Part shown: positions 2,916 to 7,157 of the stretch, piece after piece | Numbering within the stretch: position 1 is the stretch's first letter | Layout of the letters: each line of letters begins with the position of its first letter | Origin: Actinomycetes bacterium | Lineage (GTDB): Bacteria; Actinomycetota; Acidimicrobiia; Acidimicrobiales; Acidimicrobiaceae | Assembly (NCBI GenBank): GCA_021819205.1 | Contig: JAKARV010000001.1 | Span: 62,001 to 126,000 of the forward strand | Length of the DNA: 64,000 nucleotides | Direction of reading: 5' to 3' | The notes under the pieces: model-generated | The model's input: the letters and a program-made list of their open reading frames with translations, nothing else | What the model was told of the DNA's origin: nothing | Database searches by the model: none | Made by a program: the position numbers and the translations under genes

Positions 2916-3650
2916 TCAGCCGCGCCGGATCTCGATTCGGCAGGGATCGGGCGTGCCCCGCTCCGAGAGCGCACGGAGTTGCGAGGTCCCGCGGACCAGA
3001 CTTTGCATCAGCCCCTCGACGATCCCGCGTTCGGTGGCGCAGAGGACCGGGTGCTCGGTCACCAGCTGGCCAAAGGGGCAAGTGTGGCTGTCGAGCCGAA
3101 ACTGTCCATCGCGAACGATGGCTGTGGCCGAGAAGCCGGTCCGGGTGAGGGCGTCGGCGACCAGCTTGAGACTGGCGGAGACGCTCTTGGTCGGGTCCTT
3201 CCCGTTCATGGCGAGTGCGAGGTCGCGGCCGTAATCGAAGCCAACGTCGTAGGCGAGTACCTCGACCAGCTTTGGGTCGATCTCAGAAATCAGCCGGCCG
3301 AGCAGCTTCCCGAGCAGTGCCGCCTGGTCGGTGATGCCGTCGATCAGGGAAGGCTCTTTGAGCGGGCGATACTGCTTGGAAGGGCGCCCAACGTGCGACT
3401 GGCCACGATTGGTGAAGATCTCAACGTAACCGCTCGCGGCAAGGCGGTCGAGGTGGTGTCGGGCAACGTTCGGGTGCAGTTCGAACTGGCGCGCAACCGC
3501 CTGCGCCGTCGCCGAGCCCTGCTGGCGGACGAAGAGGTAGATCTCTCGGCGCGTCGGATCACCAAGGGCACGTGCCAGCGCCTGCACGGCACCAGTGAAC
3601 TCATTGGCTACCGGTACCTCTTCAGGAACGGTGCTCACCGCAGCTCCCAT
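2916..3650 (-). CDS. SufR-like transcriptional regulator with HTH and C-terminal cysteines
   Basis: A 244-residue DNA-binding regulator. Residues about 20-95 form a winged helix of ArsR/SufR type (ALGDPTRREIYLFV, then a recognition helix near HPNVARHHLDRL). The C-terminal half carries Cys191 and Cys204 in a C-X12-C arrangement and a further Cys237, resembling the iron-sulfur ligands of SufR, the repressor of suf genes; the later spacing differs. The ATG at 3650 was chosen because translation further upstream would cross the intergenic region and into mrp on the other strand. It is divergent from mrp, an iron-sulfur carrier, which fits an Fe-S-sensing role. It ends convergently, five bases from the molybdoenzyme gene. 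Confidence 0.75.
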   Translation of the reverse strand: MGAAVSTVPEEVPVANEFTGAVQALARALGDPTRREIYLFVRQQGSATAQAVARQFELHPNVARHHLDRLAASGYVEIFTNRGQSHVGRPSKQYRPLKEPSLIDGITDQAALLGKLLGRLISEIDPKLVEVLAYDVGFDYGRDLALAMNGKDPTKSVSASLKLVADALTRTGFSATAIVRDGQFRLDSHTCPFGQLVTEHPVLCATERGIVEGLMQSLVRGTSQLRALSERGTPDPCRIEIRRG

Positions 3651-3699
3651 CTTTGAGGTAACAACTACAAGGCCCCAGGTGACTAGTTTAATCCATATA

Positions 3700-3741: not shown

Positions 3742-4857
3742 GTGGCAAGAGGGGACGAGGCCGAGGTATACCGTGCCCTTGGGAATGTTGTCGACGAGGA
3801 GCTGGGCGCCGACATAGTGTCTCTTGGCCTGGTAGGGCCGATAGAGCGGGGATTGCTGAAGCCTAAGGTCACCATCTACTACGTCGGTGGGGCGCCGGAG
3901 ATTCAGGATCAGCTCCGCGCACGCGCGCAGGCGGCGCTATCGACGGTGGGCAACTTCGAACTCAAGCTGGAACCACTCGATCCCGAGGGGCAGGTGGCGT
4001 TGAGGGAGAGGCTCATCGATCCGGAGTCAGCCGCCGCCCGGGAGGAGCGGAAGCCGATCTTCTCCCGGCCTTCTTCGAAGACCCGGGTGCTCGGAATCTC
4101 CTCGGGAAAAGGTGGTGTCGGCAAGTCGTCGGTATCGGCAAACCTTGCCGTCGGGCTCGCTATCCGCGGCTTCAAAGTGGCGGTTCTCGACGCCGATGTC
4201 TATGGGTTCTCGATTCCGAAGATGCTTGGCGTCGAGCGTTTTCCGCGGGTGGTCGATGACCTGATCGTTCCGCCGATGGCCCACGGGATCAAGGTTATGT
4301 CTCTGGGTTTTTTCGTCGAAGAGGACACTCCGGTTATCTGGCGCGGGCCGATGCTCCACAAGACCATAGAACAGTTTTTGGTCGACGTCTATTGGGGCTC
4401 GCTTGACTACCTGGTGGTGGATATGCCCCCCGGAACTGGTGACATCACCCTTTCCCTGCAGGAGTTTTTGCCGCGCTCGGAGGTCTTCGTGGTGAGCACG
4501 CCGCAAGAGGCTGCGACTCGGGTGGCGCAGCGGTCAGCGTTGGCGGCCCGGAAGCTAAAGCTGCCGGTGCGAGGCGTGATCGAGAACATGGCCGGCTTCA
4601 CCGCCGACGACGGTACCAACTACCCGATCTTCGGGGAGGGCGGTGGTGAAGTGCTTTCCAGCCTCCTAGAGGTGCCGGTGCTTGGCTCGGTTCCGCTCAC
4701 GATGGGTCTGAGGCGTGGTGGCGATCAGGGAAATCCCGTCGTGGCCGCAGCCCCCGATGACCCCGCGGCAAAGGCGATCTTTGGTGTTGTCGACGCGGTG
4801 ATCGCGATGGGACCGGCGAGGCGTTACCGGGCAGATCTCAAAGTTCAAGCAAAATAG
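3742..4857 (+). CDS. mrp: Mrp/ApbC-type iron-sulfur carrier ATPase
   Basis: A 371-residue P-loop protein of the Mrp/NBP35 family, which carries or delivers Fe-S clusters. Residues about 8-85 form the N-terminal DUF59 (MIP18-like) domain; the deviant Walker A motif SGKGGVGKSS is at 121-130, and the family signature VVDMPPGTGD follows. The usual CxxC near the C-terminus is not seen: after IENMAGF the sequence reads TADDG instead of a cysteine pair. The GTG start has a strong AAGGAGG eleven to seventeen bases upstream. It leads a run with DUF3107 and two ArsA-like ATPases and is divergent from a SufR-like regulator. Confidence 0.9.
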   Translation: MARGDEAEVYRALGNVVDEELGADIVSLGLVGPIERGLLKPKVTIYYVGGAPEIQDQLRARAQAALSTVGNFELKLEPLDPEGQVALRERLIDPESAAAREERKPIFSRPSSKTRVLGISSGKGGVGKSSVSANLAVGLAIRGFKVAVLDADVYGFSIPKMLGVERFPRVVDDLIVPPMAHGIKVMSLGFFVEEDTPVIWRGPMLHKTIEQFLVDVYWGSLDYLVVDMPPGTGDITLSLQEFLPRSEVFVVSTPQEAATRVAQRSALAARKLKLPVRGVIENMAGFTADDGTNYPIFGEGGGEVLSSLLEVPVLGSVPLTMGLRRGGDQGNPVVAAAPDDPAAKAIFGVVDAVIAMGPARRYRADLKVQAK

Positions 4858-4865
4858 GAGGATCA

Positions 4866-5099
4866 ATGGAGTTGCGGATTGGTATTGCCGACTCGCCGCG
4901 GGAGCTCGATCTCGAGTTGGACGAGGCGAGCGAACAGCAGGGCGTGGTGGACGCGATCGAGCAGGCGATCGCCGGGGGTACGGGAGTCTACTGGATCTCG
5001 GACCGCAAGGGACGCCGGGTAGGCATTCCGGTCTCCAAGATCGCCTATATCGAGCTGGGGCCAGACCGGAACCAGCGCAAAGTCGGGTTCAGCGCCTAG
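4866..5099 (+). CDS. DUF3107 family small protein
   Basis: A 77-residue protein matching the actinobacterial DUF3107 family, recognised from the N-terminal MELRIGIADSPRELDLELDE pattern and the later VGIPVSKIAYIELGP block, in which I/V-x-x-I-A-Y-I/V-E-I/L-G is conserved. Members are predicted to be small cytoplasmic proteins of unknown function that are retained in mycobacteria and streptomycetes. It has an AGGAGG ribosome-binding site overlapping the end of mrp, eight bases after the mrp stop, and lies four bases before the first ArsA-like ATPase. Cotranscription with Fe-S carrier and ATPase genes is the only functional hint. Confidence 0.85.
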   Translation: MELRIGIADSPRELDLELDEASEQQGVVDAIEQAIAGGTGVYWISDRKGRRVGIPVSKIAYIELGPDRNQRKVGFSA

Positions 5100-5103
5100 G
5101 TCC

Positions 5104-6024
5104 ATGACCGCCCTCCTCGAGCACCAGCTGGTGTTTGTGACCGGAAAGGGAGGGGTGGGAAAGTCGACCGTGGCGGCCGCCATCGGGTGGCTCGGCGCTG
5201 CGTCGGGGAGGCGGACCCTGATCGTCGAGGCAGACGGGAAGGGAGACGTGGGGGCGTTTTTCGGCAGGACCGGAATTGGATTTGAGCCGGTGGAAGTGTC
5301 GCCTGGGTTGTCGGTTATGGAGATGGACACCGAAGCCTCCCTCGAAGAGTACCTGCGGATCTTCGTCAAAGTCCCGATGCTCTCCAAGATGCCCGGTTTG
5401 GCCCGGATCTTTGACTTTGTCTCTACCGCGGCTCCCGGGGTCAAGGAGATACTGGTGGTTGGAAAGCTCTGTTACGAGGCGAAGGAGAACCACTTCGATC
5501 TCATAGTGGTAGATCCTCCGGCCAGCGGGCACGTCATCTCGCAGCTCGGGGTGACCAGCGATGTCGGCGATCTCATCCAGCTTGGGATGATCCGCAACCA
5601 GACCTCTTGGATGCTTGAGATCCTTGCCGACCAGGACCGTTCCACCGCGGTGCTGGTCGCCACGCCGGACGAGACCGCGGTGGAAGAGTCGGTGGAGCTT
5701 GCCTCGCGGATCAGGTCGGAGACGCCGGTCAATTTGGGCGGGGCGGTGGTGAACCGGGTGATACATAATCCTTTGGGGGAGCTGGAGCAGGCTGAGTGGA
5801 AGCGGATCTGCGAGGCTGCCAGCGGTAGGCGGGGCATCACCCCCGTGGTGGAGGCGGTTGACCTGTACGTCGGGATCGCCGAGCGCCACGCGGGGAATGT
5901 GTCAACCCTGCAGTCTGCCATGGACGAGCTTCCAGTGGCAACCGTGGCCGAGTTGCTGGGATCGGAGGCGAATTTGGATCTCATCAGGGAGGTGGCCGAA
6001 GCCCTTGAGGTCGAGCTGTGGTGA
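5104..6024 (+). CDS. ArsA/Get3-like ATPase, first of a pair (Rv3679-like)
   Basis: A 306-residue deviant P-loop ATPase. VTGKGGVGKST at residues 12-22 contains both the P-loop lysine and the upstream signature lysine that acts across the dimer interface in this family; LIVVDPPASGH is the switch II region. Families with this fold move metalloids or tail-anchored membrane proteins, but no CxxC metal site is obvious here. The arrangement of two adjacent ArsA-like genes is that of Rv3679/Rv3680 in Mycobacterium, whose products form a complex reported to function in envelope or redox physiology. The ATG at 5104 is four bases after DUF3107, and the next gene overlaps by seven bases. Confidence 0.8.
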   Translation: MTALLEHQLVFVTGKGGVGKSTVAAAIGWLGAASGRRTLIVEADGKGDVGAFFGRTGIGFEPVEVSPGLSVMEMDTEASLEEYLRIFVKVPMLSKMPGLARIFDFVSTAAPGVKEILVVGKLCYEAKENHFDLIVVDPPASGHVISQLGVTSDVGDLIQLGMIRNQTSWMLEILADQDRSTAVLVATPDETAVEESVELASRIRSETPVNLGGAVVNRVIHNPLGELEQAEWKRICEAASGRRGITPVVEAVDLYVGIAERHAGNVSTLQSAMDELPVATVAELLGSEANLDLIREVAEALEVELW

Positions 6025-7157
6025 GAGACGTTTGGGAGCCGCTTTCCCGCTACTCCCGCCTCCTGGTGGTGGGGAGCGGCGGGGTTGGCAAGACTACCAT
6101 GGCGGCCTCCCTGGCCGTGGATGCCACCATCTCATTTCGACTGCGGGTGCTCGTGGTGACCGTCGACCCGGCCAAGCGGCTCGCCTCCAGCCTTGGTGTC
6201 GGCCCGCTGGCCAACACCCCGGTCGAGATCAAGCTTCCCGCCGCGCTGGAGCCGAAGGGCAACCTCTTTGCCGCCTCTGTGGATATGAAGCGGGCTTGGG
6301 ACTCGCTGATCGAGAAGCACTCTCCGGACGCTGGCACGGCCGCTCGGATCCTTGCCAGCCCGATCTACCACAACCTCTCCTCCAAGTTCATCGGTTCCTA
6401 CGACTACGCGGCAGTGGAGGTTCTCGCTTCGCTTACCGCCGAGCAGAGCTACGATCTGGTCATCGTCGACACTCCCCCATCCAGAAACGCGCTTGACTTC
6501 CTGGACGCTCCCCGGCGTCTGCGCGAGTTCTTCTCCTCCAACCTGCTCGCTCTTCTCACCCTCCCGCGGAGAACCCGGGTCTTTTCACTGGCGACCCGCC
6601 CCTTCTATATGGTGGCCGAGGCGATCATGGGTGGTGCGTTCCTCAGTGATTTGACCGACTTCTTTACCGACTTCTCCCGTCTCCGCGATGGCTTGGTGGC
6701 CCAGAGCATCCGCTTCAGCGATCTGCTGACCCAGGAGGAGACCGGGTTCATCGTCGTATCCGGCCCTTACGGCCCATCTGTGGTGGAGGCTGAGCGCCTC
6801 CTCGCCGCACTGGCACGTAGAGGGATCCAAGAGGCCGCCTGGTTTGTCAACCGGTCCTGGCCGGCTCGGCTCTTCAGCGAGGAGGCGGAGAGCGCATCCA
6901 GGTGGCTGGGGAGCGAAGGGCTGGAGTTGGTGCTCCAGGGGGCAGATGGCGAGCTCGACCGGTCGATTGCACGCCGGACCGTAGCGGAGGTGCTCGGCAT
7001 TCGAGACCAGATCGAGATGGCCCACTCGCGGGAGACGCTGAGTCGAATCGAACCCAGCGTTCCCATTTTCGAGATCCCCATCGCCGGCGAGGAGCTGGTA
7101 GATGCGGAGGCGCTCGCCCGGCTGGTCGCAACGGCCCGGCGCTTCTATCCGGGCTGA
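6018..7157 (+). CDS. ArsA/Get3-like ATPase, second of a pair (Rv3680-like)
   Basis: A 379-residue paralogue of the preceding ATPase, with the nucleotide loop VVGSGGVGKTT (residues 17-27) and VVTVDPAKRLASSLG in the A-loop/switch I position. The residue equivalent to the signature lysine is serine (Ser20), while the upstream partner keeps lysine, so the two subunits are not equivalent. VIVDTPPSRNALDFLDAP is switch II. The start could be GTG 6018 or the next codon GTG 6021; both overlap the upstream stop, which indicates translational coupling and probably an equimolar heteromer. A hairpin with a T-run follows directly, so this is probably the last gene of the operon. Confidence 0.78.
   Translation: MVRDVWEPLSRYSRLLVVGSGGVGKTTMAASLAVDATISFRLRVLVVTVDPAKRLASSLGVGPLANTPVEIKLPAALEPKGNLFAASVDMKRAWDSLIEKHSPDAGTAARILASPIYHNLSSKFIGSYDYAAVEVLASLTAEQSYDLVIVDTPPSRNALDFLDAPRRLREFFSSNLLALLTLPRRTRVFSLATRPFYMVAEAIMGGAFLSDLTDFFTDFSRLRDGLVAQSIRFSDLLTQEETGFIVVSGPYGPSVVEAERLLAALARRGIQEAAWFVNRSWPARLFSEEAESASRWLGSEGLELVLQGADGELDRSIARRTVAEVLGIRDQIEMAHSRETLSRIEPSVPIFEIPIAGEELVDAEALARLVATARRFYPG

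Follow-up and report, generated by a model that had tools for sequence, protein, structure and literature searches.

Two adjacent ATPase genes of an acidimicrobial genome belong to the Bag-type pairs (BagA and BagB), in which the signature lysine of the P-loop is present in one subunit and absent from the other. This asymmetry is a family rule and was universal in our sample: the residue is Lys in all 209 readable BagA domains and in none of the 215 BagB domains. The two proteins, members of a clade that we call class II, probably form a heterodimer of the Get3/ArsA fold, in which the BagB site together with the trans lysine of BagA would be the competent site.

The gene pair and its layout

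The window, i.e. the whole stretch of 64,000 nucleotides that was analyzed, contains the following features.

2916 to 3656, minus strand: HTH_20 regulator, divergent and facing mrp, with Cys residues near the C-terminus and a weak SufR match
3742 to 4857, plus strand: Mrp/ApbC-like P-loop ATPase without CxxC (PF10609, 284.2 bits)
4866 to 5099, plus strand: DUF3107 protein of 77 aa (PF11305, 75.2 bits), upstream neighbor of BagA
5104 to 6024, plus strand: BagA-like ATPase of 306 aa, ATG start, GKGGVGKST (ArsA_ATPase, 88.9 bits)
5146 to 5148, plus strand: codon of BagA Lys15, the signature lysine (Lys in 209/209 readable BagA domains)
5233 to 5235, plus strand: BagA Asp44, aligned with the switch-I Asp of Get3
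6018 to 7157, plus strand: BagB-like ATPase of 379 aa, GTG start at 6018 (or GTG at 6021), GSGGVGKTT (ArsA_ATPase, 81.9 bits)
6075 to 6077, plus strand: codon of BagB Ser20, at the signature-lysine position (Lys in 0/215 BagB domains)
6165 to 6167, plus strand: BagB Asp50, the switch-I Asp (Asp in 215/215 BagB domains)

Both ATPase reading frames and their GKGGVGKST and GSGGVGKTT motifs are as the original prediction described them, and both proteins exceed the Pfam ArsA_ATPase cut-off of 24.3 bits. The mrp and DUF3107 genes, which had been placed upstream, lie directly so: the order on the plus strand is mrp, DUF3107, the BagA-like gene and the BagB-like gene, the first three being separated by 8 and 4 bases and the last two overlapping. 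The predicted overlap of 7 bases stands if BagB starts at GTG 6018; if translation starts at the in-frame GTG 6021, it is a 4-base GTGA overlap instead. The source genome (2.1 Mb, 64 contigs, 92.6% complete) has a single copy of DUF3107 and no second Bag-type pair; its three other PF02374 matches are short and weak, and one of them is mrp.

Relationship to known ATPases

The best PDB matches of the window BagA and BagB, by sequence and by predicted structure, are 6bs3_A (Rv3679) and 6bs3_B (Rv3680), respectively. The predicted BagA structure (pLDDT 91.8) gave a TM of 0.85 (query length) against 6bs3_A, and that of BagB (pLDDT 87.5) gave Z 32.8 and rmsd 2.7 over 351 residues against 6bs3_B. Both M. 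tuberculosis subunits are in one crystal, as the title of 6BS3 indicates ("ADP-bound bacterial Get3-like A and B in Mycobacterium tuberculosis"). The printed alignments give GKGGTGKST for chain A (Rv3679) and GAGGVGKTT for chain B (Rv3680), i.e. the asymmetry of the window pair with Ala for Ser.

The window pair thus shares fold, pairing and Lys/non-Lys asymmetry with M. tuberculosis BagA-BagB (6BS3, 6BS4 and 6BS5), and it fits a Bag-type heterodimer in the broad sense: the BagA and BagB genes are adjacent, the best structural matches are chains A and B of 6BS3, and the signature position is Lys15 in BagA and non-Lys (Ser20) in BagB. It differs from the M. tuberculosis proteins in falling into a clade separate from the class I pairs, in sitting behind DUF3107, in keeping the switch-I Asp of BagA (Glu in 6BS3 chain A) and in scoring far below the NCBIfam equivalog cut-offs. 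Models NF053622 (BagA) and NF053621 (BagB) are the top-scoring NCBIfam models for the two window proteins despite scores of 123 bits (cut-off 400) and 229.7 bits (cut-off 521), respectively; because of these scores the pair is filed as a divergent Bag-type clade and not as BagA/BagB equivalogs.

The Get3/TRC40 homodimer has the overall fold of the window BagB (3zq6_B, Z 26.3, rmsd 3.6 over 280 residues) and, like the window pair, a deviant Walker A. In Get3/TRC40 proteins, which deliver tail-anchored proteins, each subunit has the signature lysine in its P-loop and the dimer interface has a zinc-binding CxxC, whereas the Bag pair consists of two unlike subunits, one of them without the lysine (Ser20 in the window BagB), and has no conserved CxxC (window BagB has no Cys, and BagA has two Cys without CxxC). 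Get3d, an accepted family member, is likewise described as lacking CxxC (PMC10248533). In the arsenite-pump ATPase ArsA the signature lysine is found in both halves (E. coli ArsA alignment), in contrast to its presence in BagA only; BagA and BagB also lack conserved cysteines for As(III) binding, no column of either alignment having more than 90% Cys.

Signature-lysine conservation across the family

Relatives were collected in three ways. A phylum search with BagB covered 296 genomes, of which 226 had a match at E ≤ 0.001 and 113 a best E ≤ 1e-29; part of these matches were retrieved, giving 99 useful regions. A class search with the BagA alignment covered 198 genomes. A named genome collection was scanned with the BagB alignment and the best 80 of 358 were kept; G[SAP]GGVGKTT was one of three patterns in that scan and favors non-Lys BagB. 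All ORFs of 233 regions were scored with two HMMs from our own alignments (A1 and A2), and after identical domains and 11 controls had been dropped the set held 213 BagA and 215 BagB domains, with class II over-sampled on purpose. The controls were told apart by their HMM score margin, which was below 50 bits (next smallest margin, 124), and not by lysine; as domains below 80 bits were uncounted, none of the controls comes from L292, L296 or the second half of L289. The P-loop could not be read from the HMM alignment in four BagA rows, namely L139 and L198 (contig edges), L092 (broken ORF) and L037, the ORF of which nevertheless holds GKGGTGKTT.

Ser predominates at the signature position of BagB (149 domains), followed by Ala (37), Pro (24), Thr (4) and Cys (1). 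Lys was found in 11 of 11 control Get3/ArsA-like domains (9 ORFs) of the same phylum. The rule also holds in non-actinobacterial MAGs (three Deltaproteobacteria and one Polyangiaceae; 4/4 BagB and 3/3 BagA found) and, with the window excluded, in the loci from searches without motif bias, where Lys occurs in 0 of 137 BagB and in 136 of 136 readable BagA. The position is therefore not variable in both members; such variability would have spoken against the original prediction. That the Ser of the window BagB is a chance substitution or a sequencing error is ruled out by the 215 BagB domains without Lys.

The window pair lies in a clade of 77 BagB (class II; FastTree support 0.88), and the split between classes I and II is supported at 0.92 for BagA and 0.94 for BagB in trees of 207 pairs.

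Unequal conservation of the two pockets and a proposed one-site motor

BagB keeps the Walker Lys and the switch-I DPA in 215 of 215 domains. The Walker Lys of BagA is replaced in 7 of 209 domains (Arg in 4, Ser in 3); in the tree the replacements fall into about five separate lineages, each with Lys in its closest outside relatives. The signature Lys of BagA, by comparison, has not been lost once. The contrast between about five Walker losses and no signature loss is suggestive, the number of events being small (a two-sided sign test on five events, calculated by hand, gives about 0.06). It hints that the lysine of BagA's own pocket may be dispensable, while the lysine that would serve the BagB pocket is never lost.

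Arg is the replacement in L162, L192, L072 and L073. A BagA with GKGGVGSST, its Walker lysine gone, is found together with a GPGG BagB at L040 (6875-7888), L049 (6797-7867) and L054 (4964-5935), and some Acidimicrobiia genomes hold this combination as a third pair.

The switch regions differ as well. The switch-II Asp is present in 212 of 212 readable BagA domains, and the switch-I position of the 209 BagA domains is Asp in 95, Glu in 93 and another residue in 21. This switch-I contrast with BagB is far larger than the Walker contrast, but it comes mostly from class I: class II BagA, the window included, keeps the Asp in 70 of 74 readable domains, so that a rule of reciprocal switch-I Asp loss is ruled out for the window pair.

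We propose that each nucleotide pocket would be built from the P-loop and switches of one subunit plus a lysine crossing from the partner. BagB would contribute an intact P-loop and the switch-I Asp, and BagA the trans lysine, to make the main hydrolyzing site. The opposite pocket, where the BagA P-loop faces Ser20 of BagB, would lack a trans lysine and would probably bind nucleotide with slow hydrolysis or none; a degenerate BagA pocket is the best reading of the sequences. ATP turnover at the single site might then open and close the heterodimer on a putative client. The observations behind this proposal are the sequences, their universal and partly reciprocal conservation, the adjacency of the genes, a fusion in a relative and the fold; from them we infer a heterodimer in the source organism, one-site hydrolysis and client handling. 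The signature-lysine counts, with Lys in all controls, and the repeated loss of the BagA Walker Lys against the invariant Walker Lys and DPA of BagB speak for a single site. Against it stand the small number of loss events and the class II switch-I Asp, which leaves the lysine alone to mark the asymmetry in that class. Replacement of Asp by Glu is also not fatal, since Nostoc Get3d is described as an active ATPase with Glu at the switch-I position (PMC10248533).

An alternative that we regard as unlikely is hydrolysis in both pockets, BagB having swapped the lost lysine for another basic residue, e.g. Arg54. The Arg of the BagB switch-I motif DPA[KR]R (Arg54 in the window BagB) is indeed present in 214 of 215 domains and might stand in for the lysine, and the window BagA keeps its Walker Lys, switch-I Asp and switch-II Asp. 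Both ATP-binding motifs are reportedly necessary in M. tuberculosis, and if so the BagA pocket must matter. The family-wide picture argues the other way: the BagA Walker Lys has been lost about five times and the BagA switch-I Asp varies, which is what weaker selection on that pocket would produce.

The DUF3107 and mrp neighborhood

The gene neighborhood is real and conserved. Of the 75 paired class II loci, 70 have DUF3107 upstream on the same strand (69 of them at a distance of -4 to 101 bases), compared with none of the 136 paired class I loci; mrp is found within 6 kb upstream of 51 of the 75 class II pairs, 47 times on the same strand. Within the phylum-sample loci, class II occurs only in the class of the window (Acidimicrobiia), in 16 of its 27 genomes, and in those 16 the sole DUF3107 is the copy adjoining the class II pair. 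The other 11 Acidimicrobiia genomes also have DUF3107, and 7 of them have mrp no more than about 2 kb away from it; mrp and DUF3107 stand side by side, with DUF3107 away from a class II pair, at L298, L300, L305, L306 and L307. The mrp-DUF3107 linkage may therefore be the older one, and the position of DUF3107 may follow mrp. The neighborhood was accordingly not accepted as proof of a dedicated DUF3107-Bag link, DUF3107 keeping mrp in those 7 loci off the class II pair. Among the 296 phylum genomes, 56 have both DUF3107 and BagB, 11 DUF3107 alone, 57 BagB alone and 172 neither, counts that are confounded by shared ancestry.

The original prediction saw in this arrangement a hint of Fe-S or metal handling, a link that now looks weak. 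CxxC is the cluster motif of Mrp/ApbC proteins. At the place expected for it, it is absent from all 59 readable Mrps of the fetched regions, as it is from the Mrp of the window; any CxxC at all occurs in 1 of 213 BagA and 2 of 215 BagB, and neither has a conserved Cys. Among solved structures, DUF3107 matches 7RUR (TB9.4), 7RUS and 9NIP; the name under which 9NIP was deposited, "Small RNA-Binding protein (SRB)", is not a proven function. An mrp-DUF3107-bagA-bagB module for Fe-S or metal trafficking could draw on the frequency of mrp upstream of class II pairs, on its closeness to DUF3107 in the 7 loci above and on the weak match of the divergent regulator to SufR (26.6 bits, cut-off 178.8), but in view of the missing cysteines and the RNA-binding name we consider it quite improbable. 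If anything, the neighborhood would point toward RNA rather than metal, because the Mrps are without CxxC, BagA and BagB are without conserved Cys and a DUF3107 relative is named as RNA-binding.

Pairing, co-evolution and fusion of BagA and BagB

BagA is located directly upstream of BagB in 211 of 215 cases. Three of the four BagB without an adjacent BagA (L134, L136 and L151) are at contig ends; the fourth, L197 (4683-5948, Deltaproteobacteria MAG), has other kinds of genes upstream and counts against the one-site proposal. Tree distances of BagA and BagB are correlated (r = 0.92, overall and within each class), which relatedness alone explains in part. In genome G199 the two are fused in one reading frame (L067, 5362-7377, minus strand, 672 codons stop to stop), with GKGG in its leading half and GTGG in its trailing half, an arrangement that resembles the two unlike halves of one fold in ArsA.

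The genome with the fusion also carries a separate class II pair (L066). Two tandem BagA genes precede a single BagB at L081 (5859-6842 and 6871-7917, minus strand). An actinobacterial-looking BagA-BagB pair was found in a MAG titled Klebsiella pneumoniae (L182), which is probably a mislabeled bin.

The formation of a homodimer by each member, which would have undermined the original prediction, is contradicted by the joint crystallization of the M. tuberculosis relatives (6BS3) and by the natural fusion. The asymmetric heterodimeric motor that it proposed accordingly stands as to the lysine asymmetry and the pairing, and its single working site is our inference. A mainly homodimeric BagA with lysine in both sites, the lysine loss of BagB being a neutral ancient relic, would agree with the lysine in every readable BagA but is very unlikely given the shared crystal, the adjacency and fusion of the genes and the better conservation of the P-loop and switch I in BagB than in BagA.

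Phenotypes of relatives and implications

Insertions in M. smegmatis bagA and bagB are described among citrate-tolerant mutants in a report that also cites bagAB as protective (PMC10597346). Insertions in Rv3679 and Rv3680 are described as improving survival under streptomycin (PMC12216072), and Rv3208A, a DUF3107 protein, is discussed in aminoglycoside-resistant isolates (PMC5108770). An aminoglycoside theme common to the relatives of bagAB and DUF3107 is thin.

The heterodimer in M. tuberculosis is already known, and the asymmetry is implicit in the deposited sequences. No discussion of the Bag lysine asymmetry was found in the literature searched, a scope outside of which the original BagAB papers (Hu 2019, Whitaker 2020) fall. 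As far as that literature shows, the lysine count over the whole family, the separate loss of the BagA Walker lysine, the BagA-BagB fusion and the DUF3107-linked Acidimicrobiia class are new.

The Get3 homodimer has two lysine-equipped sites and ArsA has the lysine in both halves; the Bag pairs have a strictly conserved single trans lysine. This makes them a natural separation-of-function case, in which the ATP-burning site could be addressed by single substitutions and the BagA variants already without the Walker lysine are ready-made tests. In one clade, BagAB also gains a conserved neighbor, DUF3107. As a speculative and rather doubtful extension, BagA might be an emerging pseudo-ATPase, a dedicated trans activator that inserts its lysine into the BagB site while its own pocket is free to decay, and the Acidimicrobiia pair might be a single-site motor coupled to the DUF3107 RNA-binding protein. 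If this is true, the DUF3107-coupled motor would belong to RNA or translation biology and not to metal transport.
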